A DNA stretch of 64,000 nucleotides from Acarospora socialis (lineage: Eukaryota; Ascomycota; Lecanoromycetes; Acarosporales; Acarosporaceae). Positions within the stretch are counted from its first letter, which is position 1. Every line of letters begins with the position of its first letter. The translations under genes and the position numbers were made by a program. Positions 6,310 through 42,300 of the stretch are shown in pieces. The DNA is taken from positions 3,596,001 through 3,660,000 of the forward strand of contig JAMYGW020000001.1 in assembly GCA_025617375.2 (NCBI GenBank), in the 5' to 3' direction. The notes below the pieces were generated by a model, which saw only the letters and a list, made by a program, of their open reading frames with translations, was not told where the DNA came from and did not search any database.

Positions 6310-7766
6310 TTGAGAAAGGTCACTAGTACAGGCAACTAAGACTGACTTAACAACAACCAAGAATTAAATTAGTGACCATTTCAATATCTAGAAAGACACA
6401 GATGACCACTTGAAGCTGAATGAGAGATCAGTGCAATGATGTCTAATCTTATTCTTTTAGTCATTGACAATTTTCACATTCAATGCAGCACTGATGAAAT
6501 AAGTGTCATTGATTTAACTCTTCTTCATGTTGTACAAAATAAGTATATTAAAAATTGTAACTTCTCTCTCATGCAACTCATTCAGATCACTATATTCTAA
6601 TAAATCAATCTTCTGTCATCAATTCTCAACTCTATGAAAGTTTTACAATAAATGCTTCTTCATATGATATTCAAATAGTAAAAAGTCTTCTTATTCAGTC
6701 AAAATAAGTGAATTATAAAAGTGAATAAAATCAGTAAATTAATTAACATCATACAACAGAAACAAATTGTCAGCAGAAGAATCATGTAATTATTGTGTGA
6801 GAAAAACTCAAAAAATATATGTGAAGTGTTGACAATCAAAGAGATGATTTTGAAAAATCTGTGAAAATTGTAAAAGAAATGATCATAGTACTAAGTGCAC
6901 TGTATAAAATAAAAATACAGATAATGTATCATCATCAGAAGTAGAAAAGATGATAAAAACTATTAAATCTGATCACAAGATCAAAGCTTCAGCAGTATAT
7001 AGCAAATAAATTACTATTTTTTTTGCATTTTTAAGATCTGAGTGTCTCATATGAGTAAAATACTCTATAACAAATTCTTAAAGTTCTTATATACTTTATT
7101 GCAAAGCTTCAAAATATTATATATTGAATATTGTATTCTATAGAATTTAGTCAAGAAATATTTTAGTTTAGTGCAGCTGACAATCTTGTACAATGTGTAA
7201 AAGATGAGAAATCTGTTGATGATAAATTTAAATCTGAATTTAGATCTAAATCAGAATTGTGAGATTCTGTTGATGTGCATGAAGACTGTATGAAAATAGT
7301 CAATATATATTATTAAAACAATATCATACAACTTACAACAGCTGTCTCTGTCTTAACAGAAGATGAATTGATATTTAGTTTGATTTTTAGCTTGTTTTCT
7401 TTCTTGATTTTCTTGATGAATGATTTGAACAACTTTTTCTTTTTGATAATCTCTTTCTTTATAAACTCAACATTGTACAACACAGCAGTCTTCTTTTTAA
7501 CTATTAAAAACATTAAATAGTTATTGAATGTAAACTTAAAATAAGTCAACAAATTCAGAGTTATTGTGATGTTCTCTGCACTATATTCAAGATAAATTGA
7601 ATCTTCTTTGCTTCAGTCATTTGCAAGTGTGAGAAATGTGACATTATATATGATATGATTTCATCAATACATGTTAGATACAAGATCTGTGCAAATAAAG
7701 ATCTTAAAATTGTTAAAGATATGATTATAGAGTTGAATACTGCATCTCTTTAAAAACAAGTACATG
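6310..7766. other. left flank of the AT-rich block, unidentified decayed DNA
   Basis: This is CG-free DNA between the RIB5 promoter and the first LTR. Near 6,770-6,900 on the plus strand there is a short Cys-rich patch (a Cys-x2-Cys followed by further Cys and His), which might be a decayed zinc-cluster or zinc-knuckle segment. A 79-codon minus-strand frame at 7313-7552 is lysine- and asparagine-rich and looks like a by-product of AT richness. I could not assign this stretch to an element. The last five bases (7762-7766, ACATG) are the left target duplication of the first gypsy element. Confidence 0.5.
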
Positions 7767-8002
7767 TGTCAGAGTAAATAATGAAGCACAGTCACAGCAC
7801 TATGTCTTAGTAAGTATAGTTAAGTGAGAGTCTATAAGTATGAAACTTCTCTGCACATAAAACTCTTCAGAAATTAGTCTTGACATCAATAGAGATATAT
7901 TGTGTTGTTTTATCATTGAATAGCTTGTGTATCATTATATTTCACACTGTCATAAATCTACTTTAATAATCTATCTGTAATAAATAAACATTGAGACTTA
8001 CA
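7767..8002 (+). repeat. 5' LTR of element A
   Basis: 236 bases, TG...CA ends, with the same length as the 3' LTR. By hand count the pair differs at 13 positions, all transitions. Several differences are CA in one copy against TG in the other, as expected where an ancestral CG decayed on opposite strands. Confidence 0.92.
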
Positions 8003-11000
8003 ATTCTAATCTCTCTATCATTACAGTTGACAGTTTGTTGTGTGATGATATACAAATGTAAAATCAACAACATTGAAGCAATAACAATATGCTGAACTCA
8101 TCAAATCAATCTTGAGATCACATAGATTTAAATGATTCACTTGTGATGAATTCATCTTTAATAAACTCATCACAGAGAGTACAACATGAAACTGATTACT
8201 TCACATCAATACTTAAAAATCTAAATGTTAAGTTGAAGTGAGCAGAAAAGAAAAAAAACTTGTTTTTGAAAAAACATTATCTTATATTTATTCAGAGAGA
8301 AGTTCAAGTGCTGTAACATTAAGACATCAATGAAACATCTGTTGATGACTCACTTAATGTGAAAGTAAATAATAATTCTTTAATATCAAAGTAAATCTCA
8401 TTCAAAATCTTTAACAAGCAATCTGCAGAGAATTATTCTCAGTACAGTAATGATTAAGAGAAATATTTACTCAGAACATCTAAATATTTATGCTGAAAAA
8501 TCTGTATAAGAGCATCTTAACTTTATATGCAGTGCTGAAATGATGTTTCACTTGATGCTCAAGAACTTTATTAATGACAAGATAAAGATTCTATATGTGA
8601 TGCAATTCTTAGTGAATGAATTATAAAATGCATGATATCAACATCAAAAAATGATTTTTCTTGAGACAATCTCTTAAGAATACTTTATCAATTATCTTCT
8701 CAATCTTGTTGAAGACTCAGTGAATTGTCAGCTACACACTGTACAAGTATACACTGAAATTGTATAAAAATCAAATCAAAGTGTGCATATTTTTGCAGCA
8801 TATCTTAGCACTCTTAAAGCACAGCTGTCACTTTATAATGAGAAACAGCTAATAATACACTTCTTTACAAAGCTATGATCAGAAATCAGAAAGACTTTGT
8901 TGAATTATTAAAATCTTTTAAATAAACAAAATAGTTTAGTAGTTCTAGCAGCACAGTTAAAGAATAATATTTGTGAATTTAACACTACAACAATAAAGAA
9001 GTCAAACAACAATTCTCATACAGAATTTTCTTTTAATAATCAAAGAACTTCAGAGACTGCACAGTTAAAATGATGTAACAATGCTGATGCAAAGTCAGAT
9101 CAATTTAGTGCTCACTTAAAAGTAAAGTTGAATGTAATATATTATCATTATCAAGAAAAGAATCACTATGCTGATGAATGCATTAAGTCAGTAAACAATT
9201 CTAATAATATCTGCATTTTCTCAGTGACTCAGTCAAAAAAAGAAAATGACTCATTGAAGTCTCTACAATGATGCAATGAAGAATGAAAGTAAAGATTAAA
9301 TTTAATATTGTAATCAAAGAAACTGTTGCTGTAAGAGAAGATTAAGTTTTAGTTTTTTTTCTTTTGAATAGTGTCACTGAATTGAATGTGATAAGTCAGT
9401 GTTTTGTTGTCACAAACAAGATGATGAAGCTTGATGTGAAAGTATCAAACTTTTTACTCATGAATAATCATTCAGTATACTGCTATGATGCTTATTTTGT
9501 GAAGTATTATTTAAAAGACAGTTGAAACAAAAAGTATGACTGTGAACACATCTTTTATGCATTGAAAAAAGATGAACTCAAGTTTGTAATAAGATTATCT
9601 GTTTTAGAGAAGAAGCAAGTTCATATTAACTGTGAATTGTAAATTTAATATTTTAACATTAAAATCTCTGCTCTTACACTGAAAAATTCAGAAGAGTTTG
9701 AAGAAACTATTGAAGACTTAATAATTTGTGCACTTCTTTAAGTTGTATTTAAGACACAGACAGTGCAACTTCAAAGTATGATCATTACATTATTTATATC
9801 TCAAATATATTCTAAGTATGTAGATATCTTTTCAGAAACTGAAACAGAGTATCTTGTTTTTCATGAGAAGCATGATTATGTTATTGATATCAATAATGAG
9901 AACTCTTTACACAGATCTCTATATAATTTATTAAACAAGAAGTTTTATGTTTTGTGAAACTATCTGAACAACATCTTAATGAAAAGTTAAATCAAATATT
10001 CTGTCAGTTTGACTGATACTTTGATGCTGTTTGCTTCAAAAAAAATAATGACTTACAACTATGTGTTAACTATCAGAAATTGAATCAGATTACTGTGAAA
10101 AATCATCACTCTTTATCTTTAATAAGTGAAATTCTGAACTGACTAAGTGATGCAAAGATTTTCATTCAGTTAAATCTTAAAGATGTCTATCATTGCATCT
10201 GTATAAAGATGAATGACAAGTGAAAGACAGCATTTCACACATGTTATGATCACTTTAAATATTTAATCATGTCATTTGAACTTGTCAATGCATCTACTAC
10301 TTTTCAAGTCTATATCAATTGTGTGCTTACAGAACATATGAATTTCATTTGTGTGATGTATTTAAATAATATTCTCATATACTTACAATCAAAAGAGAAG
10401 CACAAACATCATGTATGTAAAATACTGAAGTGACTTCAGCACTATAAGCTCTTTATGAACTTGAAGAAGTGCATTTTCTCTATGAATACTGTGAAATTCT
10501 TAAAATTTATAATATTGATCACTGACATAATAATGAACTTATGAAGAATAGAAATCATTGCAAATTAATTAGTATTTAAGACTTTTCAAGAGATGTAAGT
10601 CTTCTTAAAGTTTGTCAACTTCTATAAATAGTTTATAAAAGTTTACTTGCAAATTATGAACTCACTTACAGATTTGTTGAAAGACAATAAGAATAAAAAG
10701 AAGTCAGAATTATTTGAATGATCTGAAGATGCAGTGAAGACATTTTGCAAACTTAAAAAGATTTTTATATCTGTGTCTGTTCTTGTTCACTTTGATTTTG
10801 AGTTCAGAAACTAAATGAAGATTGATGTTTTTGAGCATGCTGTGACAGAAATTTATATTCAGTTGCAAGTGTCTGAGCAGTGACATCTCATCACTTACTG
10901 ATTGTAAAAGCTGTTCTTAATGAAGAATAATTATGAAACACATGATCTTGAACTTCTAGTTATTGTGAAAGCATTTAAGCAGTGATGTCACTATCTTGAA

Positions 11001-13379
11001 GATAGTGTGCAATCTGTGAAAGTTTTAATGAATCATAATAATCTATGTGAATTTATAAACATTAAAACATTAAATAAAAGACAGACATGATAAGCAGTGA
11101 AGCTTGCTATCTTTAACTTTGTTATTTTGCATAAATTAAGCAAGACAAATCTCATCAATGCATCATTAAGACACTCAGATTATGTCAAAGCTATTAGTAA
11201 AAGTTTTAATAAGTTATTGCTGATGTTACAAAGAAAGTTAGCAGCTATGTCTGCAACTATGTTTAAGTTTTTGATGATTATCAGTTGTCTTGAGACAGTT
11301 TGTTATGCTTGTGAAGAGTGAAATGACATGAAACTTAAAAAATCTTAATTCAGTTAACATATACTGAAAGAATCAGACAGTGAAGAATTACTGATCATAC
11401 AAAGATGCAGTATAGCAAGTACACTTAATTCTGCTGCTGAAACTGTTGACTGTAGACAACTTATTTCATGTGTATTAGTTTAGAGATTGATTAGTCACAA
11501 AATGATATATAATAACAGTAATGAATTCTTTCTATTATTAATACATTCTTTACAAGAGACAGATGCACTTGTATGAGCATAAAAAGTCAGTAAGACAAAA
11601 GAAAAACACTGTTGTCATATTAAAAGTCTGAGATGAGTATTTAATTCAACTGAATTACTTCACTATAATAAGTAATTATATATATCATCTGAAGCTTCAG
11701 TTAAAGCAGAGTTACTGAAGTGTCATCATGATGATGAACTGATGAGACACTTTGATATTGAGTAAACATTAAAATTAATGTCATGCAAGTATTACTGATC
11801 AGAATTGACTAAGAATACAAAGAAGTATGTCTTTTCATGTAATGTGTGTCAAAGAATAAAGATGTCAAGACATTGTTCACATGACAAAATGCAGTCACTA
11901 TTACATTCAAATGATTCTTAAGAAGAAATAATCATGAATATGATTACTGAATTGTTGTTAAGTAAGTGTGATATCAGTGTGTATAATGTGATTCTAATTG
12001 TGATCAATTGTTATATTAAGATGACAAGATACATTTCTATAAATAAAATTCTTACTGCTATACAATTAGCTGATGTTTTCTTTGAAGAAATAGTATGCTG
12101 TTATGAAATACTCAAAAAGATTATTTTTAATAGAGATTCTATCTTTATGAGCAGTTACTGATCAGAGATATGCTATTAAACAAAGATTAAGCATCAACTT
12201 AACATCATCTTTTATTCATAGACAGATAAACAAATCAAGCATTAAAATCAAATTTTAGAACATTATCTTCACTGCTATTGCAACAACAAACAAGATAACT
12301 GAATTAATCTATTACTACTTGCAGAATTTGCATATATAAATGTAAAGCAAGCAACACTCAGATGTAGTCTCTACTATGTATTTACAGATTATGATGTTTC
12401 AATTCATTACAGCATTGAGAACAACATCTGAAAAGAAGAAATATCTGCAGTCAAAGATAGAATAAAGAAGCTGCATATCATTAAAGAAAAGCTGTTGAAG
12501 CAATAAGAAAGCACTGTGATGTCATAAGTTAAGACTTATAATTAAAAGCACAAATCAAAGACTTATAATAAGAGTGATCTTGTCTTATTGTCAATGAAGA
12601 ACTTAAGTCAAAAGCAATTTCATAAAAAACTTTCACATAAGTTTGTAGAACTCTTTCACATTGCACATCTTGTCAAAAAGCAAGTATATTATCTATATCT
12701 ATCTTTTATCTATCAAATTCATAATATTTTTTATGTTTTCTATCTAAAGCTGTACAATCAACACAAAGACAAAGATATAATATCAGTGCTTTTATCTTTC
12801 AAACTTGTCAATAAGAATGAAAAGTATAAAATTGAAAAAATTCTAGAAAAACAACAACAGAAAGACAAGTTATGATATAAAATTAAATGAAAGAATTATT
12901 TTACTGAATATAATCAATAAATTTCAGAACAGAACATGACAGATACACAAGAACTACAATAAAAGTATAATATCAGAGCAAAGAAAAGAGACAGAAGATG
13001 ACTGCAGTTAATTTAAATGATTTGTATAATGCTGACTGTTATTACTAAAAGTGCTGTAAGAACACAGAAGAAATGAAATTATTATGTTTAAAGACAATTC
13101 AAGATTTAATGATACATCAGAAGAAAAGAAATAAAGTGTCAGTTATGTATAAGTAAAACAACAGTTTAATAATTGAAAGTCATCTCATCTCTCTCTTTCT
13201 CTTTAATCTTCTTATTCTTTTCAAAAATTATGATCAGATCATGAATCAGAGATAATAAATTGAATTATGTTGCATTAGCAGTGTGTAGTCAAGATAAAAA
13301 TGAAATAAAGATATATCACAGCTCAAAAAAAGTCTAATATGTTTTTAAAAAGATGTGTTTGACAGCAAAATTCAGTCAG

Positions 13380-14340
13380 TTAAAGAAGATCAATCTTTAT
13401 CTGTGAGATAAGTTTTTTCTTAAGATCTTTGTGATCAGTTACATACTGATGAATCATAATAGCAATGATGTAGTTTTTCTGATACTTGATGAACACAGAG
13501 CTGATAACATCATTTTTATTAAGTATATTGACAGTGACAAAGAAACAATTAATGCAAGAAAAGAACTCAGCTGAAATTTGAAAGAAATTAATGAAATAAC
13601 ACTGTAGCACAAATGTTGAACATATGCTCTCATAAGATTTATATTCTTTGATACAGTAGCTGCAGTAAACATTCAGCTTGACATTACAAATATAGTTAAG
13701 ATCAACAACAATTTTCTTACTGCAGCAAAGACAGCAGAAACAGCTAAGTGTCAATAATGAATCAGTAAAGTAAGTTAAAAGTGATGTTAAAACATCAGTT
13801 TTGTGATGAGAGCAGTTCAGTATTGATGTGAACATATTATTGATGTCATTACTACTCAGCACTGTTGTGACATGTTGATGACTGATGAAGCTTGAAATAT
13901 TGTTGAATATCAAGAAAAAGTTGAGTTTGATGCTGACAACATTATTGATTGACTTAACAACAGTGAAACACACATTCAACATCATTTTAACAACAGCAAT
14001 ACACTTCTGCTTCATCTTCTTTGTGATGAATTGATTTAAATTGTTTTCTTCATCAGAAATAAAGTCTGATGTCTGATTCTCAGCAGTAATTGTCTTGAAA
14101 GTTCACTTTTCATCATTACATATCAAGCACTTCTTCAGCTCTTTCTTCAAGAGTTAACTGTGTTTTTTTGATTACTGTCAGACTTGATGTTGTTTTTTTA
14201 AAGAAAAAATTAATATGTTTTGCAAAAACATCTAAGAAATTTACTGAGAACATGATTCTTGAATGTGTCATACAATAAGAATAAAAGTGAAGTGACTGTG
14301 AAGCAACAACAATAAGAATGCAACTTACATAACACAAGTG
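13380..14340 (-). pseudogene. antisense Cys-rich ORF of element A
   Basis: It lies on the strand opposite to pol, between the integrase end and the 3' side of element A. A 211-codon open frame (13380-14015) holds a CCLCC patch and a Cys-x2-Cys...Cys group (CSYC, then Cys 11 residues on). Weaker coding-like sequence continues upstream to about 14,340. Antisense accessory ORFs with Cys clusters at this position are seen in many ascomycete gypsy elements and are usually annotated as hypothetical proteins. Function is unknown. It is part of a fossil element. Confidence 0.55.
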
Positions 14341-14630
14341 ACAAGATATCAGAACAAAAGAAATGCATTACAATAATGTTAACATGAAGCTTGCTGTTGA
14401 TGACATGTATAAAGAAAAAATGAAGAGAAAAGAAAAAAAGAAGAAGAAAAGAAGCATTTTATTGTTTCTTTTCTGTGAATAACATTGTCAGATTCAATTG
14501 AATATAATAAGAAAATTTCTTTTAGATCAAATAAAACATAATGAGAAATGTTAAGTAGCATTTCAATTTAATCTAGCAAGATTCTCAGAATGAAGCAAAT
14601 TCTTAATAACAATGCAGCATTATAAATGTG

Positions 14631-14820
14631 TATTATGAGTTTGTTCATAAAACTATCAGCATGTCTTTCTTATCTTGCTGTGTCTTTTTTATCTTGTCAT
14701 CACTTACATTACAATATGATTCATCTTGCTATAAAGCTTATTTCTCATCTATATATCTAGCTGATTTCATAGCTTAGAAAATATCATTTTTCTTTCACTT
14801 GACACATTGTGCTTATAACA
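14631..14820 (+). repeat. 5' LTR of element B
   Basis: 190 bases, equal in length to the 3' LTR. The roughly twenty differences I counted are all transitions. The sequence right after it (from 14821) would be the primer-binding region. Confidence 0.88.
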
Positions 14821-17800
14821 ATTTGATAGCATCAACAGCTTCATCATAATGACAACAACAATCATTGATTCATTGCTCATCACATCAAAATTCTTAACAT
14901 CATTGATTATCAAGTCTATCAGATCTCTGAGTTGAGTCATAGTTATACTGTTGTCTTTATTTTATTTTATTTAATTTCATCTATCTCATATCTGTCTCAT
15001 TGTTCTAGATCAGGAGATCAGTGACAGTTTTGTTACTTTATCTTGTTAATTTGCTCATTTTATAGAATCTATCTCTTTGCTCTGCTCATTTTGTCAAATC
15101 TATTTAAGTTTTATTGATGTTTTTGATTCATCAAGTCATCAACATTTATCTTATTCTGAATTCATCATTATCTCATAATGTCATCATACTTGCATGACAA
15201 TTAGCTGAACTGATCAGACAAAACTTCATTTATTTAGATAAACTACACTCTGTGAATTAAGATTTTATTGATGTTATTATCAGTAATTTATCTTGACTCA
15301 ACTCACTTTCAGTACTTAATACTGTTCTGAGTCAGTCTGACTATAACTGTACAGTTAAAAGACTTTGAATATTGATTAAGAACTTTCAAGAAGCAACTTA
15401 CTTCAATAAATGACATATCAGTACATCTAGAACATTTATTTCATCAAGATTAACTTCTTCATATCAGTCTGAAGAATGATGATTATCTGATTTTATTAAG
15501 AAAATACAATGTAAAACAAGTTTACTGATCAATCAGTTTTCTGACACTGAGCTCAATATGTTGAACAATTTTTCATCAAACAACAATCTCATCAATATAA
15601 CTCAGAAACAACTAGATCAGCTGATTGAATGAATTATAGTCAGAGTTTTAGTAACACATCAAACTGACTCATCAGGTTCTTCAGATTTACCTGAATTGCT
15701 CAGCAATGATAATTAAGATGAACTGAACAGACAAGACTCATCAAAAAGTAATTTTTGAACACAGAACATTAACTACTTCAACTTCAATTCAAACATTGAT
15801 TCTGTCAAAGTTAGTGACAATAAGCAGATTTATTACAATGTCTTTGTCTTTACAAATTGAATACAAGTTAAGACTACTATCATGAATGCAGTAATTCTAC
15901 AAAAAAATCTCAAATTATGTCTCTTAAACAAGACAGATCACTGATATACTGAGAAGTTTAGTTATCTCATCAGAGTTGAGCTTCAAAACAACAATAAAGA
16001 TGTGAAAAAGTGATGCAAGACACTAAAGACTAAATTTCACAATTCACTGAGTTGCATCTTATTGATGCTAAAATCTCTATGTTATACTATTAATGATGTA
16101 TGTTGATGTAAGAATTTCATCAATTATATTCAAAATGTTGTTCTACATGAGAAAAACACCAATATTGTCATCAACAACTGCTTTTAAGTTCTTTTAGTCT
16201 ACAAGCATATGAACAGTGAGCTGCATCTACATCTATCACTACTGACTGACAAGTTTACTATTAAGAGTCTCATTGAGACTGTGAACACACAAAAGAATAT
16301 TTAATTCAATATCTATGTTCAAAATCAGTCAACATCATCAAATCAGTCAACACAGCAACAGTCTCAGTTATTCAGTAGAAATCACTCATTTCAATCTTTC
16401 AATGTCAGATTTAATGAACTCAATCAATCTAGGTCTGCATTCTATTATGACTGATTTTCTTATGATAATTAATTTTCTTATAAAAATCAGTCTTCTAATA
16501 ACTACAAGCAATAAAATAACTAACAACAGAACTATCAGAATCACAGTAACATTGTTAATGAACTGCATCAGTATTCTTCATCAGTGTTACTGACATCTCA
16601 TCAGTCTCTACAGATAATCTTTAAAAATGAAAAACTGTTGTCTGAGTTGTATCAGAACTGATCTCATTACAATTTAAATATTTCAAAATAGTTCTATCAA
16701 TCAAACTGCTCTTTATATCAGTCATATTGATCTTATCATTCTTCATATCAGTATAACAAATCATGAGTCTATCATGTTGAAGACAGTCAACAGTCTATAA
16801 ACAAACAAGAGAAGTATCAGACATACAAGAATGCATATTATGAAACTCATAATCTGACTGATGACACTGAGAACACTGTTGAGAAAGAAAAGAAAAAGAA
16901 TGTTGAACTGAATGTAACTGATGAAAATGAGAATCTTATTGATGTAAATCATGTCATCAAACTATCTAAGCTAGAATATCACACCTGTCATCTATCTTTT
17001 GCATCAAACAATCAACTACACTGACATCTTTGAGTTAGTTGTCATCACAGTAAAATCACTAATAAGATCATCACATCAAATCTGATGATGTTGAAATTGT
17101 CTGTTTATGTTAAATTCATCACTACAAACTGACTCAGCTCAGATGACTATGAATTTTGAGACTGACACTATACTATGATGAAAGTATGACTGTCACTTAC
17201 AGCAGCAAATTAATCTGTTTGTCTCAACATCAATTGTATCATGATTCTCATCAACAGACAGTTTCTTAAAAAACAAACATTTGATATGATGATCTGTACT
17301 ATGATATTGTCAATATCAGTACAAGAACTCAGCATCACTATATATTAATCAGATCAATACATCAAAATCAGTATTTATCTGTTGAGTAAAAACTGCACTG
17401 TCATTATTACATGAGAGATTCATATTGTCAAAGATCTCAAGACTAAGATGCTTATCAACATAAACATATTAGTTTCTGAAAATATAATCATGAATTTACT
17501 CAGAAAGTTAACTGTTATTGATAGTTGTGAGAATATTGAGATTTCATTGATTATTACAACCAAATTCATCAATTAAATCAGTTACATCATTCTATCTGAA
17601 TGATGTATAATTATATCTTCACAAAGCAATTTTATAGTTGCTGTCATTCAATCTGATTTGTCTCAAAATCATGATTTTCTCTTTAAATTCAATTGTCAAC
17701 ATGCAGATGCAGCAGTTTATGCATACATTGTTAATCATGCAATGTTAAAGGTATACATACAAAATGACAGCAATATTTCACTGATTATTTCAAGAAAATC

Positions 17801-19026
17801 CTGTATGAGTCAGATTGTCAAATATGAAGTGAAAGAATGTTACTTAGTTATAACTGAAGATGCTGTATTAGTCTTTTTGTCTTAATGTTATCATAAATGA
17901 GTGCAAATCACTATGAGAAGTCTATTAGTAGCAATCATCTTTCATATCAGTATGAATAAGTCACTAGAATGCAAACTTTCTAACAGCATCACAATATATA
18001 ATAATCTCAACACTTCTGTCAAAATCAAGACTATTGTTAAAGACTATTCAATCTGAAAAGATCATGATAATGTTGTCAACATACTCAAAAAAAAGTAAAT
18101 GAATATATCTCTTCTAAATGACTGAAAGAAACAGTATAAGTCTGATTAAGTCAGAATATATTCACTAGATGCAAATGATTGTGCAGTAGTTGACAAAATC
18201 TTTGATAAGTTACACAGTCAGAATCAAATGAAATGAATCAGTACTGTCATGCTGTTTTTATTTTTATGTTTTGTTGTGTGATATACTTTACTGAATAATA
18301 CATACAAAAATTACATTGTCATCAATATTAAAGCACTCAATAAGATCAGCATGTCAAATACTTATTTAGTATTTTCACAGACAGATATTCTTGCTGCAAT
18401 TCAAGAGATCAAATTTATCTCTACAGTGAATTATAGCATATATTTTTATCAGTGATGAGTCAATTCAGAGCATCATCACTGTCTGACTGTTGTCTCATAT
18501 TGAAATCAGAAAATCTTCAAAATAGCAGTCATAAAGTACTGTAACACATCTGTCTATGTGCAGCAAATGACAGATTGAATTCTCTGATCACACTGTGACT
18601 ATTTTTGTATTTATGTTGATAACATAGTCATATTTTCAGTCTCATTAGTGAAGCATCTACATCATTTACAAAATATTTTTCAAAAACTAACTGTCAAACA
18701 GATCTGTCTAGCTTCTGAAAAGTTCTTTCTAGAATATTTGTTGATGTAATTTTTAAATTAATGAGTTGATGCTTTAAAACTAATCATAGTGAAAGCAAAG
18801 CTTTCTGCTATCATGAATCTTGAGTTTTTATGTATTTTAATACAGCTTAAAAAGTATCTTGAGATGACTGACTATCTATAACAATATATATCTCATTATG
18901 CTGCTATCATCAAGTCACTATAACTTCACAAAATACTCTTGAACCAATGTCTTCAACAAGATCATGATAAGAATATAATTAGTAATAAAAACAGACAAAA
19001 GAGACTTGCTGATCATATCAGTATAG

Positions 19027-19381
19027 TGTTACAATTAAGTCAGAATGAACTTAAAGCAAACTGATGCATATATGTGAAAGATATACATTCAGAGAGATGT
19101 TTAGACAGTAGTCACATGATATTTCATCATACTCAACATGCAAATGATGAGCTGAGCAAGCTGAAGCTCAACACACTCAATATACTCAACAGCAAGATCA
19201 GCAAGAACTGACAAGCAAGTTATCTATATAGTAAAGTCATTTCTCTTATGAAAATGATCATGTTCAACTTAAATAACTATTTAAGAGTTAAAGATCAGAA
19301 TCATTTCAGATCAACTGTTATATCAATAAGCACAAACTTTTAGTTCTACATATCTGAGAAATCTCAGATTAAAATGTTACA
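19027..19381 (+). repeat. 5' LTR of element C
   Basis: 355 bases. Its 3' half matches the 3' half of the element E LTRs closely, while the 5' half (U3 side) is unrelated to theirs. Confidence 0.88.
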
Positions 19382-27707: not shown

Positions 27708-27712
27708 ACATG

Positions 27713-28301: not shown

Positions 28302-28306
28302 TTTCT

Positions 28307-28516: not shown

Positions 28517-28582
28517 AATTATAAACTCAGATTAGCAAGAAGCTTCTTAAAGAAAATGCATACTGTTTTAGTGTCTCAACAA

Positions 28583-28840: not shown

Positions 28841-31800
28841 CTTCTTTCTCTTATTTACATTATTTTCTTTTATACATCTTAATACTTCACTTTATTCATT
28901 TCTTATACTATATGTCAATCATCATCAAAAGCTACATCATGAATTTCAACAACTCTTTCACAAAGCAACAATCTGTTTCAATTCTCAATCATAAGAACTG
29001 CAATTAATGATTTACTTTCATGAGAAAATGACTGATAAATAAAGATCTGTAATATATTATTGAGATTTCAGTAATTAATACTTCTGTTAGTGACTTTTTC
29101 TTTTTATTTAGTAATTTTAATTTCAAAAGTCAAAAATTTAACATAAAGACTCTATACTGATTCATCATCTATATCAATGTAAATGATCAGAAATACATTG
29201 TAGACAAGATTAATGTAAAGAATACTTAAAATATCTTGAAATTCAGATACAAGAAGAAGCTGCAGATCACTGAAAAACAATATTTAATGAAGTTCATTAA
29301 ATACAGAATACTGACAAATGTATTCATCAATGAAACATAAACACATTTCAGCAAGCTGAACAGAAAAATTGCTGTAACTCAGTCTGATATGACTGATTTA
29401 TTTAAGTCTGAACAATGATTTTAAACACTTCTTCAAGCATTATTTGAGAACTACACAGTGATTTGCAACATAATCAACACTCAAAACATCTTAAACATCA
29501 AAAGAAGTCTGCAGAAACTTTAAGAGAAAAAAATATAATTAAAGACTGTTGAAATTGTCTTGTAAGCAGATCAACACAAAGAGAAAGATTTGACACACTT
29601 ATATCAGTATGATGTAAGATATCATTATTGAAGATTGTCAAACTTCAACAATGATTATTCTTCTCAGCATAAATCAGTTAAATGTTTTCTCTGTTGTAAT
29701 TTTCATTGCATTTAAGACTGTGAATATCTTTCTGTTGCTTGCAAGAATGTTAAGTTAAAAAAGTTATTTGTTTTAATTATAGTTAAGTCAATTAAAAAGT
29801 CAGACAAGTTATCTGCAGACAACTCACATTATAAAGACAAAATAAGATTTAAACACAGAAACAGAAAGCATAAAGCTTTTGATGCTGAAACTAAGAAAAA
29901 TAATAACTCATTCTTATCTGAGTTTGATGCAGAGAAAGACAATAAAATTGTTACTCTGTTTAAGAAAGTTATCAGTAAGATATTTAGCTTTGAATGAGTT
30001 GTGAATTCTGAATACTTCATACACATAATTAATTAATGTCAACTTTTCAGCAGCTCTTTGATACACATATGATGCTGAAAAATTAAAGTTGAAAGAAAAC
30101 ACTTATACTCTCACTACTATGAAGTAACTGTGATATAGAACAGATTCAAAAACTTTGTGAATCTGAGTTTAACACTTTATGTGTTTAAATTAGAAGTTAA
30201 TCTTCTATTGAGAAAGTAAATATGTAAAATAAAATTGCAGAAAAGCTTTGATCAGCACAGTCTTTACATATAAAATAAATATAACAATGTCATGATAGAA
30301 ACATCTGAGTGAAGCAGTGTCTATATAATTAAATACATTGCAAAAAAACTGAACAAGTTCATTCTGTTATTTGTTATACATGTGTTATTCAATTCAGAGA
30401 TGACTCTTTCAGTTACAGTATTAAATGTGAATTTTTAAATACAGACTGACTTATTAAGCTCTGCTGACACTTTATTTTCTGTTGATATTTCATTTTTAAG
30501 TGAAAAGATCAAAATCTACAAACTGTAACATCAATAGTTTATTCATTTTAACTCTGCAAAGCTCTGCAATCTTTACAAAGTTATAATTTTTAAGAAGTCA
30601 ATTTTTATTGCTGAAGACAAGAAGAATATGTGTGAAATTTGTGCTGTCATCAAGTTTATCAATCAGCAAAAGCACACTGTAAGTAAGCAGAAGATCAATA
30701 TTCTTATTTTGATTTTCATTGACATATGTAATTTCTTATCTCTGTCATTTATGAAACATCAGTATTTTCTGAAGATTGTGAACAACTATTTTTAAAAGAC
30801 ATAAATAATACTGCTGAAGCAACACAATAATGTCTTACAAAAACTGCAAAAATGACAATTAAAAATTGAACTTCAGACTAATATAAGAATGCTTGCTGTA
30901 CAGAGTGACAATATTATAAAATTAAGATCAATTCTGAATAACTAATGCAGATTTTTTAACATTACATTGCAGTACACTATATTTTATATGTTTATTCAGA
31001 ATGATGTTGTTGAAAGAGTTATTCATATCATTGAGAATTCAGTGCACATCATGATTAAAAAGACAGAACTTTCAATAAAATTCTAAGTGAAAACAATACA
31101 AACAGATATCTATCTTCACAATTGAACAGCAATTGATTTCTTAATCAACAGTAAACAAATAACTTCAAAAAAGATCTTCACTGATGTGCAGCTGTTCATT
31201 GATTACATTTATGTTTGAGATTGCAAATATTACTTCTATGTTGATTTCAAGTTGTTGTTAAAGAGCAGACAGAACAAGTTCATGAATTAAGAATAAGTGA
31301 AAGTTTTCATGAACTATATAAATAAAATCACAAAACAGTATCTGCTTTAAGCTTCAGATCTTAAACAGATCATTAAGAATTATGCTGTGAAGTTTGCTGA
31401 GAATGAAAAGAAAAACAGTGTTGATCTTAAACTGCAAAGATAAATGCTGAACATTCTATCTGAATGAAAATCAGTTAAATAATCATGAAAAAATGCAGTC
31501 ATCATGAATTTTACAGCATTTACAACTCTGTCTACTATCTCTGAGCAAACTTACAGATTCAGATTCATAAATTTAAATGATAAAGAAAAATTCAAATTAA
31601 CTGCAGATAATCTCAACACATTTTCATCAGACATTTATATGATAAATAAATTGACTGCAGTCAATTTAAACAGATCACAGACAAGTGAACAGAGTGAAAT
31701 TAAGTAGTTTTTACATATTAAAGTTTCTGTTAGCAAAGTACTGAATATTTTAACTGAGAAAGTCAAAACATTCTTGTGCATCAAGATCTCAAAGAGAAAA

Positions 31801-33556
31801 CAGAACAACAATGATGAAAACTCTGACAAATTCATGATTAAGATATCATGAGTTATGTTGATGTTCACAGTGTTCATTACAAATAATGAGAAAAATACTG
31901 AGAATATTAAATCTAACATTCTCACATCTGTTATCTATATCAAAGCAGTAAAAAACTCAGTCTGAAGAAAGATGTAAAAAAATATTATTTATGCAGAATT
32001 AATGATTCTGACAGTCAACAGAACATGAAAAGAGATTATGTCATCAAAGAACACAAACATAGTGATCAGCAAATAAATATTCAAACTTAAACTGAACATT
32101 GATGAATTTCTGAACAAGTTTAAAACAAAAATTATGATGAGAGATTTTTCACAGATGTATAACATTAATTATAAGAATATCTTTACATTTATAGTTAAGT
32201 TCAACACTCTTTGAGTTTTTCTTGTCATTGTTGTTCTTGAGAATCTTGAATGTCATTAAGTAAATATCAACAATGTTTTTACAAAATTCTTTTTTAAAAA
32301 GATCATCTACATGACAGCTTTTTCTGAAGTTCAAGTTGCATTTAACTGTGCATTGTGTATATTGTGTAGTTTTTATGATTTGAAGTAAACTACACAAAAC
32401 TGATATAAATGATGTGTCATTGATCTGTGCAAACTAAACTTTCATTAAAACAATGTTAACTCATGTCTTCTCATCAACAGTGTCAAAAGAATTATGCTGC
32501 TTCTTTATGTAAATAATATAATTGTAGTCTTAGTAAGTCTGACACACATTTTCTGATTCAAGAAAGTTCTTGTAAAAATGTTCAAAGTTAAGAATTTGAA
32601 AGAGACACAGAAAATTCTTGACATATAAATCACACACAATCACAAAAAAAAAATTCTACATCTAAATCAAACTCATTATGTAAACAAGATGCTGAGAGAT
32701 CTTCACATATAATTTGACAAGCATAAAATCACAATAATCTTACTTAATGAATATGATGCTCTTCATCTCACTGATTTAACTGATTAAAAAATAAATTAAA
32801 AACAGTATTAACATGCAATTGAGAGTCTGATATATATGATGATTCATATTTAACTGAATATCATCTTTGTTCTAAATTAACTAAGTCAATATCTTAGTAA
32901 TTTCACAGAACATCATAAACATGCACTTAAGAAACTGCTGCAATATGTAAGATCAATTATTAATTTTGACATTGTGTATAAACTCAGTGAAAGTCAAGTT
33001 ATGCTTGAATACTTTAACTTTAATTATGCATTAAACAAGCAAGATCAAAAGTTAATTCTGAAACATATGTATATGCTTAAAGATAGATCAGTGTTATGAG
33101 TAAATTAAAAACAGAAATTTATTGTTATCTTAATTACAGAGACTGAATACATGATTATATCAATGTGTGCAAAGACTGAAGTCTGACTTACATAGATGCT
33201 GTAAAACATGAATATAAACAAGTATCTTGAAGACAATTTATACTGTGTAAACATCAAGAAAAATAAAGTTCATCAAGCAGTTTCATCTCTTTAGCTTAAG
33301 AAAGACAATCAGACTGTTTTGATTTTGATTAAAAATGCACATGTGCATGAGCAATTAAAGCACATTAACATTGTCTATCATCATATTCATAATCTGCACA
33401 AGCAAAATCAGATTGATGTGAATTTTGTACTCAGTTAAGACATGATAACTGATGAATTAATTAAGTTCTTATTTAGATAAATCTTTAAGCACTTTGTTGA
33501 ACAACTGAAACTTACTGTTAATGAAAGTCAATAGATGCAGCATCACTGAGTGAAAG

Positions 33557-33767
33557 TGTTGAAAAATATGATGTTTTAACTGCTTTCATAATCTTAGTTG
33601 AGACTAATGTTAAAAGTTACTCATTATTTCATATAGTCTGTGTGACAGAGCATGTAAATAGTGAATTTCTATAATTCATGTTGATCATGATCAAGTTAAT
33701 GATGTATATTTCACTAGATAGACAGTTAGTCAGCAGTATAACACAAGTATCATTTTATCTCTCAATA
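33557..33767 (+). repeat. 3' LTR of element D
   Basis: 211 bases; matches 28307-28516 throughout. Confidence 0.85.
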
Positions 33768-34040
33768 CTTCTCTGAGAATATTCATCTCATTATTATTTT
33801 ATATAACTTTTGAGTCTTGTTTCTGATCTACTAACTGAGCATTAAATTCATTTTCTGCAGTCTGTTCAATTCTGATCAGAAATATTTTTCTGTATAATTT
33901 AACTGATTCAATCAGAATTGACATTAATTCTGATTGAATATGTTATTGTATAATTGTGTACAACTGAACATAAATCTCACAATAAAATCATAATTTATCT
34001 GCAAAAGCATTCTCTGCACAAATATTAAGAAGTTTTATAC

Positions 34041-34402
34041 TGTTATGATCATATCTAGAAAGAAAAAAACTTGTGAGTCTGTGATCAAGAGTTCACCTGA
34101 AGTGTATACAAAGAAAACTGCTAAATAACAGTTATGTAACAGCACAATGACTCAATAGTGAGCAGACAAGTCAAGAACTTAACTTCTTGATGTTAAAACA
34201 TCAAGACATCAAGAATGCTCAATGCAGAGATGTTGAGCAACATTCTATATAGTAGAGTTGTTTCTTTTATGAAAACAATTGTGTTCAACTTAAATAACAA
34301 TCTAAGAGTTAAAGACCAGAACTGTTTCAGATCAGCTGTTATATCAATAAGCACAAATTCTTAGTTCTACATACTCAAGAAATCTTAGATTAGAACATTA
34401 CA
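34041..34402 (+). repeat. 5' LTR of element E
   Basis: 362 bases, same length as the 3' LTR. Confidence 0.9.
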
Positions 34403-37400
34403 CTTTGAACACTCTTACAATATAATGAGTATGATGTCTGACACACAGAAGAACATTTTAACTTTGTTCTTGAGACAAACTCAGACAAACTCATCTCTAC
34501 TATTTACTTTAAATAGAATGATGACACAATCAGTGATGTCAGTCTTGATAATACAACTATTTGTGAGTGCATCTAAGATACAGGTACTGAATGTCTTTGA
34601 TGAAGAGTGAGAAAAATTGTGAGTCTTTGTGACAAAACTCAATCTATATATTGAGTTCAATCAGTCAAAGTTTCAAATCAATCAAGAGAAAACATTGTTT
34701 GCAGCAATCTATCTTGTGAATGCAGTCTTTAATTGAGTTAATTTCAAGCTGCATGAGTTTCTAAAAAAGAAATACAAAGAATGCAACACAGATACAGAGT
34801 CTATGTTCAATGACTATGCACAGTTTAAGAAAGAGTTAAGAAAAACTTTTAAAGTAATTAATGAAGAAAGAGCAGCAGAGAAATAGATTTACATCTTGTG
34901 ACAGAGTGAATTGATGACAGTATACATCACAGAGTTTCAGTGACTAACAACACTTATCAGATGAAATGATGAAGCACTTATCTATCAGTACTATTATGAG
35001 TTGAGAGAGTTCATCAAAGACAAAATAGCTCAAGCAAAACAATCAGACAATCTTCAGAGAATGATTAATCTGAGTATCAACATTAACAGTTGTCAGTGAG
35101 AACAACAGATGAAACAAAAAGAATATTGAATATCATTTATGATAAAAGATCAAGAAGAAAGCTTCTGATCATGAATTAAGTGATATGTTTTATTAATAAG
35201 ATATAAAAAAACAAACTCTATAAATCTTAATACAATCAAGAAGTGTCATCAGAAGTCATGAAAAACTAAATGAATAAAGTATGAATGTCAGTCAGAGTGG
35301 TTCACTAAGTCTTAAATAACACTGTGAAATGAGATGTAAATGTGTTACAACTGTGAAAAACTCAGACATCTTGTTCAAGAATGTAACAGATCTTAGATAA
35401 AAAGAAAAAATGTTGCAGTGACAGTTAAAAAGAATATATGTGTAATGCACAACATTCTCAGCTGAACAGTCTGTTACAATAACATGTGCAGAGTACACAT
35501 AAACACAAAAAATAAAGTCAAATGATATCTTCAGAGATTGTGCAAAGACACAAGAAACAGATATGACATGATGAGTCAATTAACTTATGAAAAAGAATTA
35601 GCTACTCTTATCAAGAAAAGAGTTCTTGATGCTGAGAAAGAAAACAATATTCTTGAAGATGACATCAAAGAAACTGATGATTATGAATTTCAGATTGACA
35701 AATCTTGAATATTTTCTGATAGTGATACACTTATGAAAGAAAGTTTGAACAATGCTGAGACAGAATTCTTGAGAAAGTATTAAACAAAGATTAAGAAAGA
35801 TCTAAGTGCTCAGAGAAAAGTGACATCAGTTAGCAAAAAAATGCTAAAGAAAAAACAAGAAGTTCAAGATCAGAAAGCAAAGATATGCAAAGAATTCAAT
35901 GATCTACTGAGAGACATACAAACAGTTATGAGAGAATCAATATCAGAATTTCTTGTGTGAAAAATCAAGAGTCACAAGATCAAGATATACTTACTTGAAG
36001 AATATATCACACAGAATGAAGACAGATGAATCTTCAGTGAAGAATATATATCATTTGAATTTCTGCAAAGAGTAAAAGTCTTTGAGAGTTAGTTGTAGAT
36101 GAAGTACAATCAGTATGAATTCTGACTACATTCAAAAAGATACATTGAGCAGCACAGTCTAAAGTATGTGAATCTCATGATCAAAAGAAAATCAAGATGA
36201 TTTCAAGAACTCTGAAGATGAACTGAATAATTAAGTGAATTAAAAAATGAAAAGCTTTCTCAACAAGACTAGAAAATAAGAAGCTAGTGACATCTCAAAG
36301 ACAAGACAATGATTATTGAATATAAATCAAGATTATGATCAATGAACATCAAATCAATGTATTGATGAATTCTGAAGCAGATGATAATATTATGAACTGA
36401 AAAATAGTTAACATGTTGAAATTAGAGACACAGTGAGTGCACTGTTCATTCAACATACAAATGACAAATGAAGTCATCAAAAGAATTAATGAGAAAATCT
36501 GTGTGAAAGTCTCAATTCTTGAAAATTCACAAGAAATAACATTTAATGTTATGAAATTAATCAGATATAATGCAGTGCTAGAAATGTTCTGATTATGTGA
36601 AAGAAATCTGAGAATTGATTGAGTTATGAAAGAGATATGTGCAGTTGAAAATGCATACAAGATTTTTAAACAATCAGAAATGAGCTTATCAGAGTATAAG
36701 TCATGAGATCACAAAATATCACTATTGAATGAAAAACAATCTAAGTGAATGCTTCTATACTCAATGAGTGAAGATTAACTTAAGAAAGTTAGAACTTATC
36801 TTGATAAGAATCTTAAAAGAAAATTCATAAAATTGTCAAAATCATCAGCAGAATATTCAATTCTGTTTATATCAAAGAAGAATGACAAGAAATGACTATG
36901 TGTTGATTACAGACAACTCAACAAGATAACTTATTGAGACAGTTATTTTCTACTGCTGATAGAAGAGTTGTAAGATTAATTAGACAAGATTAAATGATTC
37001 ACAAGCTTAAATCTTAAGAATGTTTACTATCAAGTTAGAATGAAAGAAGATAAAAAGTGAAAGACAGCATTCTGAACAAGATATGAACACTATGAATACA
37101 TTGTTATGCTGTTTGAGCTAAAGAATGTTTCAGTCATCTTTCAAAGATTAATCAACAACATGTTGAGAGAATATCTTGATGATTTTATGATCATATATCT
37201 CAATAATATTCTGATATACTCAGAAGATCTTGAGAAGCACTGAGAGTATGTGTGCAAGATATTGATAAAGCTCAATGAGAAAGTCTTGTATATGAAAAAG
37301 TCAAAAAGCAGATTCAAAATCAAGAAAATTGAGTTTTTAAACTATGTAATTTGATCTGAACAGATCAAGAAGAATTTAAAGAAGATAAAAGCAGTCAGAA

Positions 37401-39399
37401 ACTGATCAACACTGAAATGAATCAAGAAAGTACAAGTCTTTCTAGAATTAATGAACTATTATTGAAAGTTTGTATCAAACTATGCAAGAATTGTGAAATC
37501 ACTAATGCATTTGACACACAAAAGCAAAAAATAACATTGAGATAAAAAGCAGAAGAATGTGTTCTGCATATTAAAGAAAAGTTTTAGTGAAATAGCACAT
37601 CTGAGAATACTCAATTCAGTATACAAGAAGACACTGAAAACTGATGCTTCAGATTTCACAGTAAAAGCATGTCTATATTAAATTGAAAATGAGTAACAGA
37701 AACTCATAGTATATCAATTTAGAAAGCTATCAGAACTCAAGAAAAGATATGAGATTTACAACAAGAAACTTCTTGCAATAGTAAAGACACTACAAGATTG
37801 AAGATCTTATCTCACAGAAACAAACAAGTCAATTTAGATCTATACAGATCACAAGAATTTGAGAAACTTTGCAACAACAAAACAACTTAATCAATGACAG
37901 ATTCATTGAACAGAGCAGTTGACAAACTATGAATTTCAAATTCATTACAAGAAGAGTAATGAGAATGATGAAGTGAATGTCTTGAGTAAATAACTCAATC
38001 ATGAAGATGTACAGATGATACATGCTGAAATTCTCAGCAAAGACAACAACAAAGTTCTCACAAAAGACTTAACAGCAATGTACAAGATGAAGCAAGCTCT
38101 CTTGACAGATAAAGAACTCATTAAGATGTGTCATTATGACAAGATTGAAGAACATCTAAAAATCAAAAACACTGAGAATCTAGTGTGAAGAAGATGTAAC
38201 ATTGATGATTTTTGAAATTGAATCATCAAGATGATTGCTGTGTGCAACTCATGTCAAAGAAATAAGATCAACTGAAATAAACAATATAATGAAATAATGT
38301 GACTCAACACATCAAATGCACTGTGAAAGTCAATTATCATGAACTTCATTATGAAGTTATCACTGTTGAAGAATTCAGCATGAAAAATGAAATTCAACAG
38401 TATATTAATTATAGTGAACAGATTGATCAAGTACACAATGTTTATTTCATTTAAAGAAACTGCAACAGCATCAATATTGACATACATGATACTAAGAGAA
38501 TTGATTAACAATTATGAACTATCAAAAGAGTTTATCACTGACAGAGACAAGCTGTTTACAAGCAAGTTTTGAAAAATGCTCACAGCAGAACTCAGAATAA
38601 AGCACAAAATGTTAATGACATATTACTTACAGATGAATGAACAAAGCAAATGAATGAATTAAACAGTGAAAATCTACTTAAAACACTATGTCAACAAGAA
38701 TCAGAACAACTGAGTATGACTGTTATTAATGATACAGTTTGTATACAACAACATGAGAAATGAAATCATGAGAGAAACATCTTTCTATGTGAATTATAAC
38801 TACAACTCAAAGATATAACAAGATTTCAAAGAACATGAATCACAGAGTCAAAAAGCAATTTTAGATATTGCTCAGATAAAGAAACTGCATCAAAATTTAA
38901 CAAAATGAATTGAACAGCAGACAGAACAAACAATAAAGACAAGATCATTTGAAGAAGAAAAAAAGATATATTTAAGAACAGACAACATACAAATCAAAGA
39001 AAGAAGTAAAAAACTGAAAAACAAGAACATTGAATCATTCAAGATCATATGAAACATCAAGAAATTAAGCTATGAGCTAGACTTACTCAGAAAAATGAAA
39101 ATACACTTAATATTTTATGTGTTCATGTTACAGCATTGCAATCAGTTCATATCACTTCAAATCATCAAAACATCTGTCAAACTCAATGAAGAATACAAAG
39201 TTGAGAATATTTTAGAAAAGAGAATGATTAGTGAGAAAGCTCACTATCTTGTAAAATGAAAAAATTATAATATCTCAGAAAATATCTGAAAACTCAAAAA
39301 GAATCTTAAGAACTGCACAAGAACACTTTAACATTTTGAGAAAAGAAGTCAACATTAGCTCAGAAGAATGAAGACATCAAGTTAACAAGTTATGACATT

Positions 39400-39785
39400 G
39401 TTTAAGAATCTTCATTCTCAGTCTCATCATTATCACTATCAAGTTTAGCAGCAAGACAGTCAATCTTTTGTGTGACACAACAATCTGTCTGATTCAAAGT
39501 CTTTTGAAAATACATTATTTTGACAGCAAGAACATCAAAAGTCATATTTACATCACTTATTTTCTTTCAGAGTGAAAGACAAGTTCTGTTGAGAGACTTT
39601 CATGAAACTACAATGCACAGATGATCATGATGAGTATACTTATTGTATTTTGATCTTTCATTGATCATAACAAAGCAATTGAGATCACAAGTGATACAAA
39701 ATTCACAAAAGAATGTGATGAGACTATCACTGAGCTGAATTTTCTTTGCAATTCTTAGATGATTGAAATTTTTAGAAAGCATCAT
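39400..39785 (-). pseudogene. antisense Cys-rich ORF of element E
   Basis: A minus-strand frame between integrase and the 3' LTR. The 61-codon open part (39600-39785) contains CEFC and a downstream Cys, and an acidic segment matching element C follows to about 39,400. It is homologous in position and sequence to the antisense ORF of element C and similar in layout to that of element A. Confidence 0.5.
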
Positions 39786-39860
39786 TACTGATGATGAGAG
39801 TTGTTATATACTTTCACTTAAATAAACTCTAGAGAACTAGCATCTGAAGAGAAAAAATGA

Positions 39861-40222
39861 TGTTATGATTATATTTAGAAAGAAAGAAACTTGTGAATCT
39901 GTGATTAAGAGTTCACTCAGAGTGCATACAAAGAAAACTGTTAGACAGCAGTCATATGACAGCACAATAACTTGATAATGAGTAGACAAGTCAAGAACTT
40001 GATTTCTCAACATCAAGATATCAAGACATCAAGAATGCTCAATGCAGAGACATCAAGCAATGTTCTATATAGTAGAGTTGTTTTTTTTATGAAAATGATT
40101 GTGTTCAACTTAAGTAACAATCTAAGAGTTAAAGATCAGAATCATTTCAGACCAGCTGTTATATCAATAAGCACAAACTCTTAGTTCTACATACTCAAGA
40201 AATCTTAAATTAAAACATTACA
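39861..40222 (+). repeat. 3' LTR of element E
   Basis: 362 bases, followed by the second TATAC. Confidence 0.9.
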
Positions 40223-41954
40223 TATACTTAAATTTTGCAGCTGTTCTGCACATCAATTAAGAGTAATAGATGAAAGATATTCATCAATATTTATAAATTA
40301 GTGTGTTGTACAATACTAGTGAATTAAGAATATGTATTTCAACTTGTATATGATGTCTGTAATTGATCAATGAAATTTATGTTCACTAATATGTCATGAT
40401 TCTTCACTGCAACTGTTTCTGAATAATTATATAACATATGAGATTGATTAGTCACAGTGTTGAGATAATTGAATTATCATTGTACAATGTGATTATTTCA
40501 TAGTTGCACAAATTCATAGATCTCTTGTTGCACAATTGACATATATATAGTTAGCATGATAATATGATCATCAGAAAATGAATAATTGTAAAATCTTTCT
40601 TTTATGAGATGATGAAAGTAATTTTAAATATATTAGCATTGTACAAGCAATATTAAATAAAAAAATATTTACACATCAGTGAAAGATCTGACTTTTTGTC
40701 AGTTAAGATCATCAAGTTTTAATGCATTGATTTGCAGTGCTTGTATCATAGTAGTAACAGTCAATCAAATCAATGTCTGACTGTGTTGTATAACACAATG
40801 CTGTGTGCATCTCAGCACACAATGTTGTTTTCTTTTCACAATCAGATTATAAGATCTGCAGAAGAAATTCAACTGTTTTAACTGTTTTCAGATACTGATA
40901 TGCAACACTGACTTTTATATAATTTGAGATGTCAACATAGATTCATGAAATATAGTGAGAAAATGCATTTATTTCAGCATAAATCTGAAAATCTCACATG
41001 CTCAGCTTATTGTGATCATCAATTGATCAGATATAGTTGAAATCTAAAATGATGTATTTGTTGCAGCAACATTGCAAATCATTCATACAATATTGATGAT
41101 CTTCTGAATTGAGCTCTTTGATTATGACAAAAAGACAATTTTTATTTCTATATTAGTTACTAGAAACAAATATATATATATTGTATGACTTAAATATAGT
41201 ATCTGACAACAAGATGTTCTTTTATATAAAAGTGTGTATATAATATACTTCTTTCATAGTCATCAATAATTTCTGTATTTAATTCTTCAAGAACTATTCT
41301 TCTAAGATTTTCATCTGTCTTTATTCAATCAAAAATGAAGACTCTTTGAACAAATTTCAGTCTTTTACATAGTCATACAAGATTTACAGACTCTAGATTA
41401 TACTTTTCTTATTTCACAATATGTAAAATAGTTTTGTCATTAACATAAGAGACAAAGAAAAGAGCAGTTGTGTCAGTTACACAAAGAGCAAGTTGAGAAG
41501 AGTTATCTGTCTTGATTTTTTTTGATATTTGTCAGTCTTTGAGATATTGTTGAATTATATAAGCATTACACACAATTTTGTGCTCTTCTTCAAGTAGCTG
41601 AGATATTTTCTTTGCAGTGTGATTTTTCTGAAAAAACACAATAATTCAGTTTTTATAAAAAGCAAGATCAATAGAACATTTATTGTTTTTCATTTTGCTG
41701 TCTTTGTATGACAATGTTTGATTATTGAATATAGTTGATAATATAAATTTGTGTGTGCATATATTAGTGCAGTTTTATAAGTGACAGTTTTACATGAAAT
41801 ATAAAATTCTTACTACAGACTCAGACTTTTCAAAGTTTTACATTATATGATATACATTCATTATTAATATATGCTCAGTGAGACTCTGTTGTACAATGTC
41901 ATTCATTTATAGAAACTATATATATTAATATATATTATACAATTCACATCAACA

Positions 41955-42035
41955 GATTCAGTGATGTAAGTGATAACACATAGATCATGTAGTACTACAT
42001 CTTTTAGAATTTGAGTTCAAATCTCAGCTGAATCA
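41955..42035 (+). tRNA. tRNA-like relic at the right edge of the block
   Basis: An 81-base segment folds like a tRNA. A 7-bp acceptor stem (GATTCAG 41955-41961 with CTGAATC 42028-42034) is fully paired, with discriminator A at 42035. A 4-bp D-stem (ATGT with ACAT) encloses AAGTGATAAC. A 5-bp T-stem (TTGAG with CTCAG, one wobble) encloses TTCAAAT, giving the B-box core GTTCAAATC. The T-arm abuts the acceptor strand exactly as in tRNA. The 28 bases between D- and T-arms do not form a standard anticodon arm, so identity and function are unclear. It could be a mutated tRNA gene or the head of a tRNA-derived SINE. It lacks CG and GG, like the block. Confidence 0.5.
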
Positions 42036-42300
42036 TTCAAGGATATTGTGTGCAAGTTCTACAATAATGTGGAACATGCACATGCTGTTCTTGGACTATC
42101 ATTTTGTTGTATGTTACAAAATTCAGAAAATTTTCTTGATTGTTGTTAAGTCAGTCTCAGTCGCCCGTAACTAGGGATTTTGTGCCTCGGTCCAGCAGAC
42201 ACCGACTCTCCCGGAGCTTGGCGGGGCTTTTCCAAAAAGGCCCCTTTGTTGACAGTCTTGTCTATGCGAGCTCCAGCATAGGTTTGACCGGCAGCTCAAA
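42036..42300. other. right boundary of the block and CoA-transferase promoter
   Basis: GG returns near 42040-42095 and CG near 42159. The region holds the 5' flank of the CoA-transferase gene. No other feature is visible. Confidence 0.45.

Follow-up and report, generated by a model that had tools for sequence, protein, structure and literature searches.

What process removes every CG dinucleotide, and nearly every CC and GG, from 35.8 kb of a fungal contig and spares the sequence on either side? The question is raised by a stretch of 64,000 nucleotides of the Acarospora socialis genome (GenBank assembly GCA_025617375.2, contig JAMYGW020000001.1, positions 3,596,001 to 3,660,000 of the forward strand), hereafter called the window, in whose coordinates positions are given. 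The affected block is very probably a nest of dead transposons that was repeatedly mutated by a repeat-directed C-to-T process resembling repeat-induced point mutation (RIP), which targeted C before C or G and ran nearly to exhaustion.

Dinucleotides were counted at positions 6310-42150 (35,841 bases, GC content 28%). CG was absent, about 720 being expected from the base frequencies of the block, and CC and GG occurred 15 and 11 times (observed/expected 0.02 each); the ratios were 1.56 for CA, 1.58 for TG, 1.40 for TC, 1.32 for GA, 1.04 for GC, and 0.66 for TA. Both flanks were ordinary (CG 0.85 and 0.95, CC 0.93 and 0.98). The CG-free run extends from 6307 to 42161, bounded by a CG at 6305 and a CG at 42162, and the second-longest such run within the window measures 177 bases; the block interior (6407-42040) holds 12 CC and 6 GG. 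These counts bear out a preliminary description of the window, according to which the block at 6310..42150 had no CG, few CC and GG, and plentiful CA and TG, and CA is enriched, not depleted as CG is. The loss of CG holds for the interval delimited there, but the natural unit is slightly different, namely the repeat at 6327-42169.

The RIP indices of the block (product 0.705, substrate 1.542, composite -0.838) do not indicate CpA-type RIP and lie on the unmutated side of the classical thresholds (product >1.1, substrate ≤0.75, composite >0) stated in the sections consulted of PMC6963459; the composite index of the flanks is -0.470 and -0.523. Because the standard indices rate this mutated 35.8-kb block as unmutated, a survey that relies on them would overlook it and possibly further blocks of the kind.

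At this locus the mutated sequence is confined to transposons inserted one within another, with the following features (strand given where assigned):

6327..42169: outer terminal-inverted-repeat element, split open by nested insertions; genome copies start at 6327 and end at 42169, with terminal inverted repeats and a target duplication
6327..6363, + strand: left terminal inverted repeat, 37 bases, 4 mismatches against the right repeat
42133..42169, - strand: right terminal inverted repeat, the final 10 bases of which retain CG and CC
6322..6326: left copy of the target-site duplication (ACTAG)
42170..42174: right copy of the target-site duplication (ACTAG)
7749..27708: nested element B, with terminal direct repeats at 7749-8003 and 27454-27708 (92%)
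19023..25266, + strand: long terminal repeat (LTR) retrotransposon A1, within B, with LTRs at 19023-19384 and 24905-25266 (87.6%)
28307..33767: probable further element C, with direct repeats at 28307-28516 and 33557-33767 (85%)
34041..40222, + strand: A2, a second copy of LTR retrotransposon A1, with LTRs at 34041-34402 and 39861-40222 (86.5%)
6307..42161: interval without CG

The target duplication flanking the terminal-inverted-repeat element (6327-42169) is 5 bases long. The CG-free zone begins about 20 bases outside this element on the left and ends 8 bases inside it on the right. The 4 mismatches between its inverted repeats read, left versus right, CA versus CG (twice), CC versus TC (once), and TA versus TG (once, a CpA-type change).

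Over 1171 aligned bases, 137 transitions and 0 transversions separate the members of four repeat pairs of the block. At 22 dinucleotides one member has TG and the other CA, which is the sign of CpG changes on opposite strands. The genome was searched with positions 19023-25200 of the window (element A); 12 of the 411 first-look candidates were scored and 16 matches were listed. Among those listed A1 has 15 further matches, 11 of them at least 5.2 kb long at 81-84% identity, and a reverse-transcriptase match lies inside 3 of the listed genome copies. The alignment of A comprised 12 full or near-full copies (L005-L016, the window's own included; the short pieces L017-L020 were excluded), and CG was absent from all 12. 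Column pairs were analysed in 9 of the 12 copies (L014-L016 were excluded as incomplete): at 404 adjacent pairs of a C/T column and an A/G column CA was found 1701 times, TG 1510 times, TA 425 times, and CG never, where independent columns would predict 542 CG. Both strands were mutated, and the choice of strand at neighbouring sites was nearly independent (same strand 0.494-0.556, expected 0.500-0.523). Private transversions in the 12 copies numbered 98 over 5214 gap-free sites; the mean pairwise distances (transversions 0.0124, transitions 0.1569) show that part of the transversions are older and shared. Stops inside reverse-transcriptase matches, present in 127 of the 150 listed matches and lacking in the other 23, were TGA in 418 cases, TAA in 60, and TAG in 21, an excess of TGA that is expected from mutated CGA and TGG codons. 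One of the short pieces, L017 (C6:2028981-2032088), lies at the extreme end of contig C6, is CG-free, and has 53 GG versus 5 CC, possibly telomere repeats.

The direction of change was read against L021 (C14:277266-280748), a retroelement copy of another family with almost normal composition (GC 0.476, CG 0.69). Of the 380 candidate relatives 40 were scored, the longer ones being 70-81% identical to L021, and two of them (L059 and L060), both CG-free, were compared with it. Out of 134 CpG aligned with L059, 78 had become TG, 41 CA, and 15 TA, and none was retained; in L060 the corresponding pairs were 59 TG, 58 CA, 16 TA, and 2 other, again with none retained. C-to-T changes in L059 affected 343 of 409 CC, 149 of 269 CG cytosines, 78 of 515 CA, and 66 of 462 CT, and in L060 325 of 409, 149 of 270, 136 of 517, and 143 of 462, respectively. 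In total L059 showed 636 C-to-T changes, 22 reverse transitions, and no transversions, and L060 753, 105, and 22.

Two causes had been offered in the preliminary description, a RIP-like process and slow methylation with deamination, of which the first is supported and the second is not. Repeats are the usual methylated compartment, and genes of DNMT5-like and DIM-2-like enzymes are present in this genome, so that slow loss has to be considered, in which an enzyme of the DNMT5 or DIM-2 type methylates repeats and the 5-methylcytosine then deaminates spontaneously; we nevertheless judge it improbable. CpG has vanished completely, yet very little neutral change has accumulated, as seen from the 0 and 22 transversions beside 636 and 753 C-to-T changes in L059 and L060, from the 0 transversions beside 137 transitions in the 1171 bases of the block repeat pairs, and from 98 private transversions over 12 copies by 5214 sites of A. 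Slow loss also leaves CpC as a target unaccounted for.

Young copies of a long interspersed nuclear element (LINE) give the context preference without saturation. The set consisted of 14 of 29 loci (L022-L050), namely L023 and 13 copies at least 99.1% identical to it, 15 loci being excluded. At positions where at most 2 copies differ (12 ambiguous columns were dropped), C-to-T changes were found at 59 of 2576 CC, 3 of 182 CG, 10 of 8932 CA, and 7 of 6874 CT. Counted as distinct columns in 12 copies (without L030 and L037), they affected CC in 38 of 186 columns, CG in 2 of 12, CA in 2 of 639, and CT in 3 of 492, with A:T-to-G:C changes in 2 of 2410 columns and no transversions. Within CC the change falls on the 5' C (ACC 17/1078, TCC 20/784, GCC 12/350, CCC 10/364), and C after C but before A or T stays at background (CCA 3/1638, CCT 0/700). 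The LINE copies at L022-L033, L036, and L037 (C1:2.65-2.80 Mb, C8, C10, C14) are almost identical to one another, and several have long open frames; CG stands at about 0.05 of expectation in them, and of CC and GG one reaches about 1.0 and the other about 0.6.

The RIP-like process targets a cytosine with C or G as its 3' neighbour; in young copies the rate at C before A or T is lower by a factor of roughly 20 or more. It uses both strands: either C of a CpG is changed to give TG or CA, after which only a weak target remains, and at CC the 5' C becomes T. Once CG and CC have gone, change all but ceases, which is nearly the observed state. The preliminary description had likewise proposed C before G or C as the target, and this is confirmed both by the saturated copies compared with the high-GC copy and by the young LINE copies.

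This rule also bears on the remaining explanations. Editing of retroelement complementary DNA by an APOBEC-kind cytidine deaminase would be brought to mind by C-to-T changes in runs of C, which recall the CC preference that one APOBEC reportedly has, and is very unlikely: APOBECs typically read the 5' side, whereas here the 3' neighbour counts and the 5' C of CC is changed, the two strands are about equal in sum (TG 1510, CA 1701), and the terminal-inverted-repeat element is mutated as well, though by its structure it should not pass through complementary DNA. A 3'-neighbour rule would suit a methyltransferase better than a deaminase. Judged from the assembled sequence, composition bias (naturally AT-rich DNA) or an assembly artefact (base conversion in the reads) is hardly credible: the block does look AT-rich, but the GC dinucleotide is normal (1.04) while CG is 0, the TG/CA choices differ between copies at different places, the genes on either side are ordinary and so are 6 of the 8 genome pieces sampled, and one mutated family has a high-GC copy (L021).

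Exhaustion by the RIP-like process was simulated starting from L021, with equal rates for CG and CC and with CA and CT at 1/28 of that rate; as the ratio and the dose were taken from L059 itself, the simulation is a check of sufficiency and consistency and not a prediction. Simulated and L059 values were 0 and 0 for CG, 2.6 and 4 for CC+GG, 255 and 236 for TA, and 0.289 and 0.300 for GC content. The survival of a few CC and of no CG may be due to the number of cytosines on offer, two in a CpG and one in a CC. Two other rules were rejected: classical CpA-RIP by the indices and the spectrum (the simulated CpA rule leaves CG at 97 and TA at 705), and CpG-only repeat mutation by the loss of CC (343 of 409 in L059 and 38 of 186 columns in the young LINE copies), the CpG-only simulation leaving CC+GG at 267.

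The genome was also checked for RID- and DIM-2-type methyltransferases, as the preliminary description had advised, and genes of the RID, DIM-2, and DNMT5 types are present. Searching all six frames with the methyltransferase family yielded 4 matches, which fall at 3 loci (DIM-2 type, RID type, and DNMT5-like). The best named relatives of the DIM-2-type (62%) and RID-type (51%) matches are from Pleopsidium flavum (Lecanoromycetes, Acarosporales). The RID-type gene, the 5' end of which lies beyond the examined locus, is open from the examined start to its C-terminal end, with the catalytic region and the C-terminal motif spread across one 52-base intron. At the DNMT5-like locus an SNF2 domain, which is a mark of DNMT5 (PMC7862722, sections consulted), lies about 2.5 kb downstream of the methyltransferase match on the same strand, the two possibly belonging to one gene. 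PF12047 (RFD domain, DNMT1 type) had no matches in the genome in a search that was equally silent in the control genomes. The marks of RIP found here are C:G-to-T:A transitions with almost no transversions, confinement to repeats at this locus with the single-copy flanks spared, and a RID/Masc1-type methyltransferase gene that is present and readable. Eight 4-kb pieces were sampled from the genome, of which 6 were ordinary (CG 0.84-1.02) and 2 were without any CG. The candidate agent is the RID-type methyltransferase (or DIM-2), RID being preferred because RIP elsewhere requires RID (PMC4352252, sections consulted); a methyltransferase of altered preference would be the mutator, presumably acting in the sexual phase.

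Several points weigh against this account. Genes of the DIM-2 and DNMT5 types are also present, so that RID is not singled out. The CG sites in the young LINE are few (2 of 12 columns), and the equality of the CG and CC rates is therefore only loosely bounded. In the most diverged LINE copies (L034, L042, and L046, 82-91% identical to L023) the lead of CC over CA and CT is weak, amid 133-300 transversions; L034 differs from L023 at 31 of 190 CC, 64 of 642 CA, and 55 of 493 CT, with 300 transversions. CpA and CpT were also changed in the saturated copies (15% and 14% in L059, 26% and 31% in L060), and the higher figures in L060 weaken the context contrast there. The copies of A are not star-like in age, as their mean pairwise transversion distance (0.0124) shows, and some copies lean to one strand (L005 137:211, L008 149:207, L059 78:41). 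Finally, the polarity was read either from majority bases or from L021, and L021 may also have been mutated (22 reverse transitions versus L059).

Comparison with known systems was based on the consulted sections of the reports cited. RIP in Neurospora crassa is alike in its C-to-T changes on both strands, its restriction to repeats, the premature stops, and the RID homologue, but there the order is CpA>CpT>CpG>CpC (PMC5496416), whereas CpC and CpG lead here. In Trichoderma reesei CpG is likewise a main target, but CpA and CpG come first about equally and CpC last (PMC5496416). CpG is also lost in the CpG-type repeat mutation of Microbotryum, rusts, and Tuber (PMC4352252), in that of Coccidioides (named in PMC4014442), and in Uncinocarpus reesii, an ascomycete with RID in which CA and TG are raised (PMC7862722); unlike here, the sections consulted of these three reports name no CpC target for such systems. 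The signatures given in a survey of ten genomes are CpA, CpT, and CpG only, the last being linked to enzymes of the Masc2 type (PMC4352252). In Stagonospora nodorum repeats CpC, GpG, and CpG are depleted as well, but so is CpA, and CpA-to-TpA is dominant (PMC2621366). The lichen fungus Cladonia rangiformis has strong RIP with similarly sharp gene/transposon borders and RID and DIM-2 homologues (PMC12542154); 37.5% of its 500-bp windows are affected, compared with 2 of the 8 pieces here, and its affected windows peak near 16% GC, unlike the 28% of this block, the dinucleotide context not being found in the parts of that report consulted.

The nearest precedent is a table on hypermutation in Rhizoctonia solani AG8, a possible precedent for CpC in the sections consulted: the text names a CpG bias, and Table 2 gives one CpC single-nucleotide polymorphism (SNP) every 214 bp (301 in repeats) and one CpG SNP every 370 bp (583), figures that are not per available site (PMC4014442). 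That fungus differs in being a basidiomycete, in that its SNPs lie between nuclei and affect genes as well as repeats, and in showing no exhaustion. No ascomycete with CpC as its leading RIP target was found in the literature surveyed, as far as the sections consulted go; Clutterbuck's surveys, which lie outside it, may mention CpC. What we call new here is a variant of RIP-like repeat mutation with CpC and CpG as leading targets. Its dinucleotide preferences almost invert the textbook order, and the genome encodes the textbook type of enzyme as well; the determinants of RID specificity are thereby open to comparison and domain swap. Because the process runs towards a target-free state, it is cleanly marked by the length of CG-free sequence.

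The young LINE itself is poor in CpG. A single open frame spans the L023 locus; its 1251 residues include endonuclease, reverse-transcriptase, and RNase H domains, and its 3753 bases contain 6 CG versus 76 expected from its own third-position composition. AGA or AGG encodes 41 of its 45 arginines, and codons ending in CG are absent. CC occurs 81 times versus 107 expected and GG 109 times versus 109 expected; of these, 49 CC and 74 GG are imposed by proline, glycine, and tryptophan codons. L023 thus avoids CG, avoids CC somewhat, and does not avoid GG. Its CpG poverty may be due to past mutation combined with selection on the protein, or the element may have been CpG-poor on arrival, the data fitting either. 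We tentatively suggest, at somewhat less than even confidence, that in this lineage the 3' preference of the RID-type enzyme has moved from A/T to C/G and that one LINE family or more responded by ridding an intact frame of nearly all CpG, so that mainly CC and GG, for the most part dictated by proline, glycine, and tryptophan codons, stay open to attack. If true, this would be a host-transposon arms race at the level of dinucleotides, and the CpG-poor LINE, if adapted, a rare visible answer of a transposon.

Elsewhere in the window a perfect 34-base tandem repeat of 2.4 copies lies at 49491-49572. The flanking genes are those of a Brix-domain protein (3813-4898), a heavy-metal P-type ATPase (50435-54373), a MUS81-like nuclease (58378-59769), and a ferric reductase (61396-63381).

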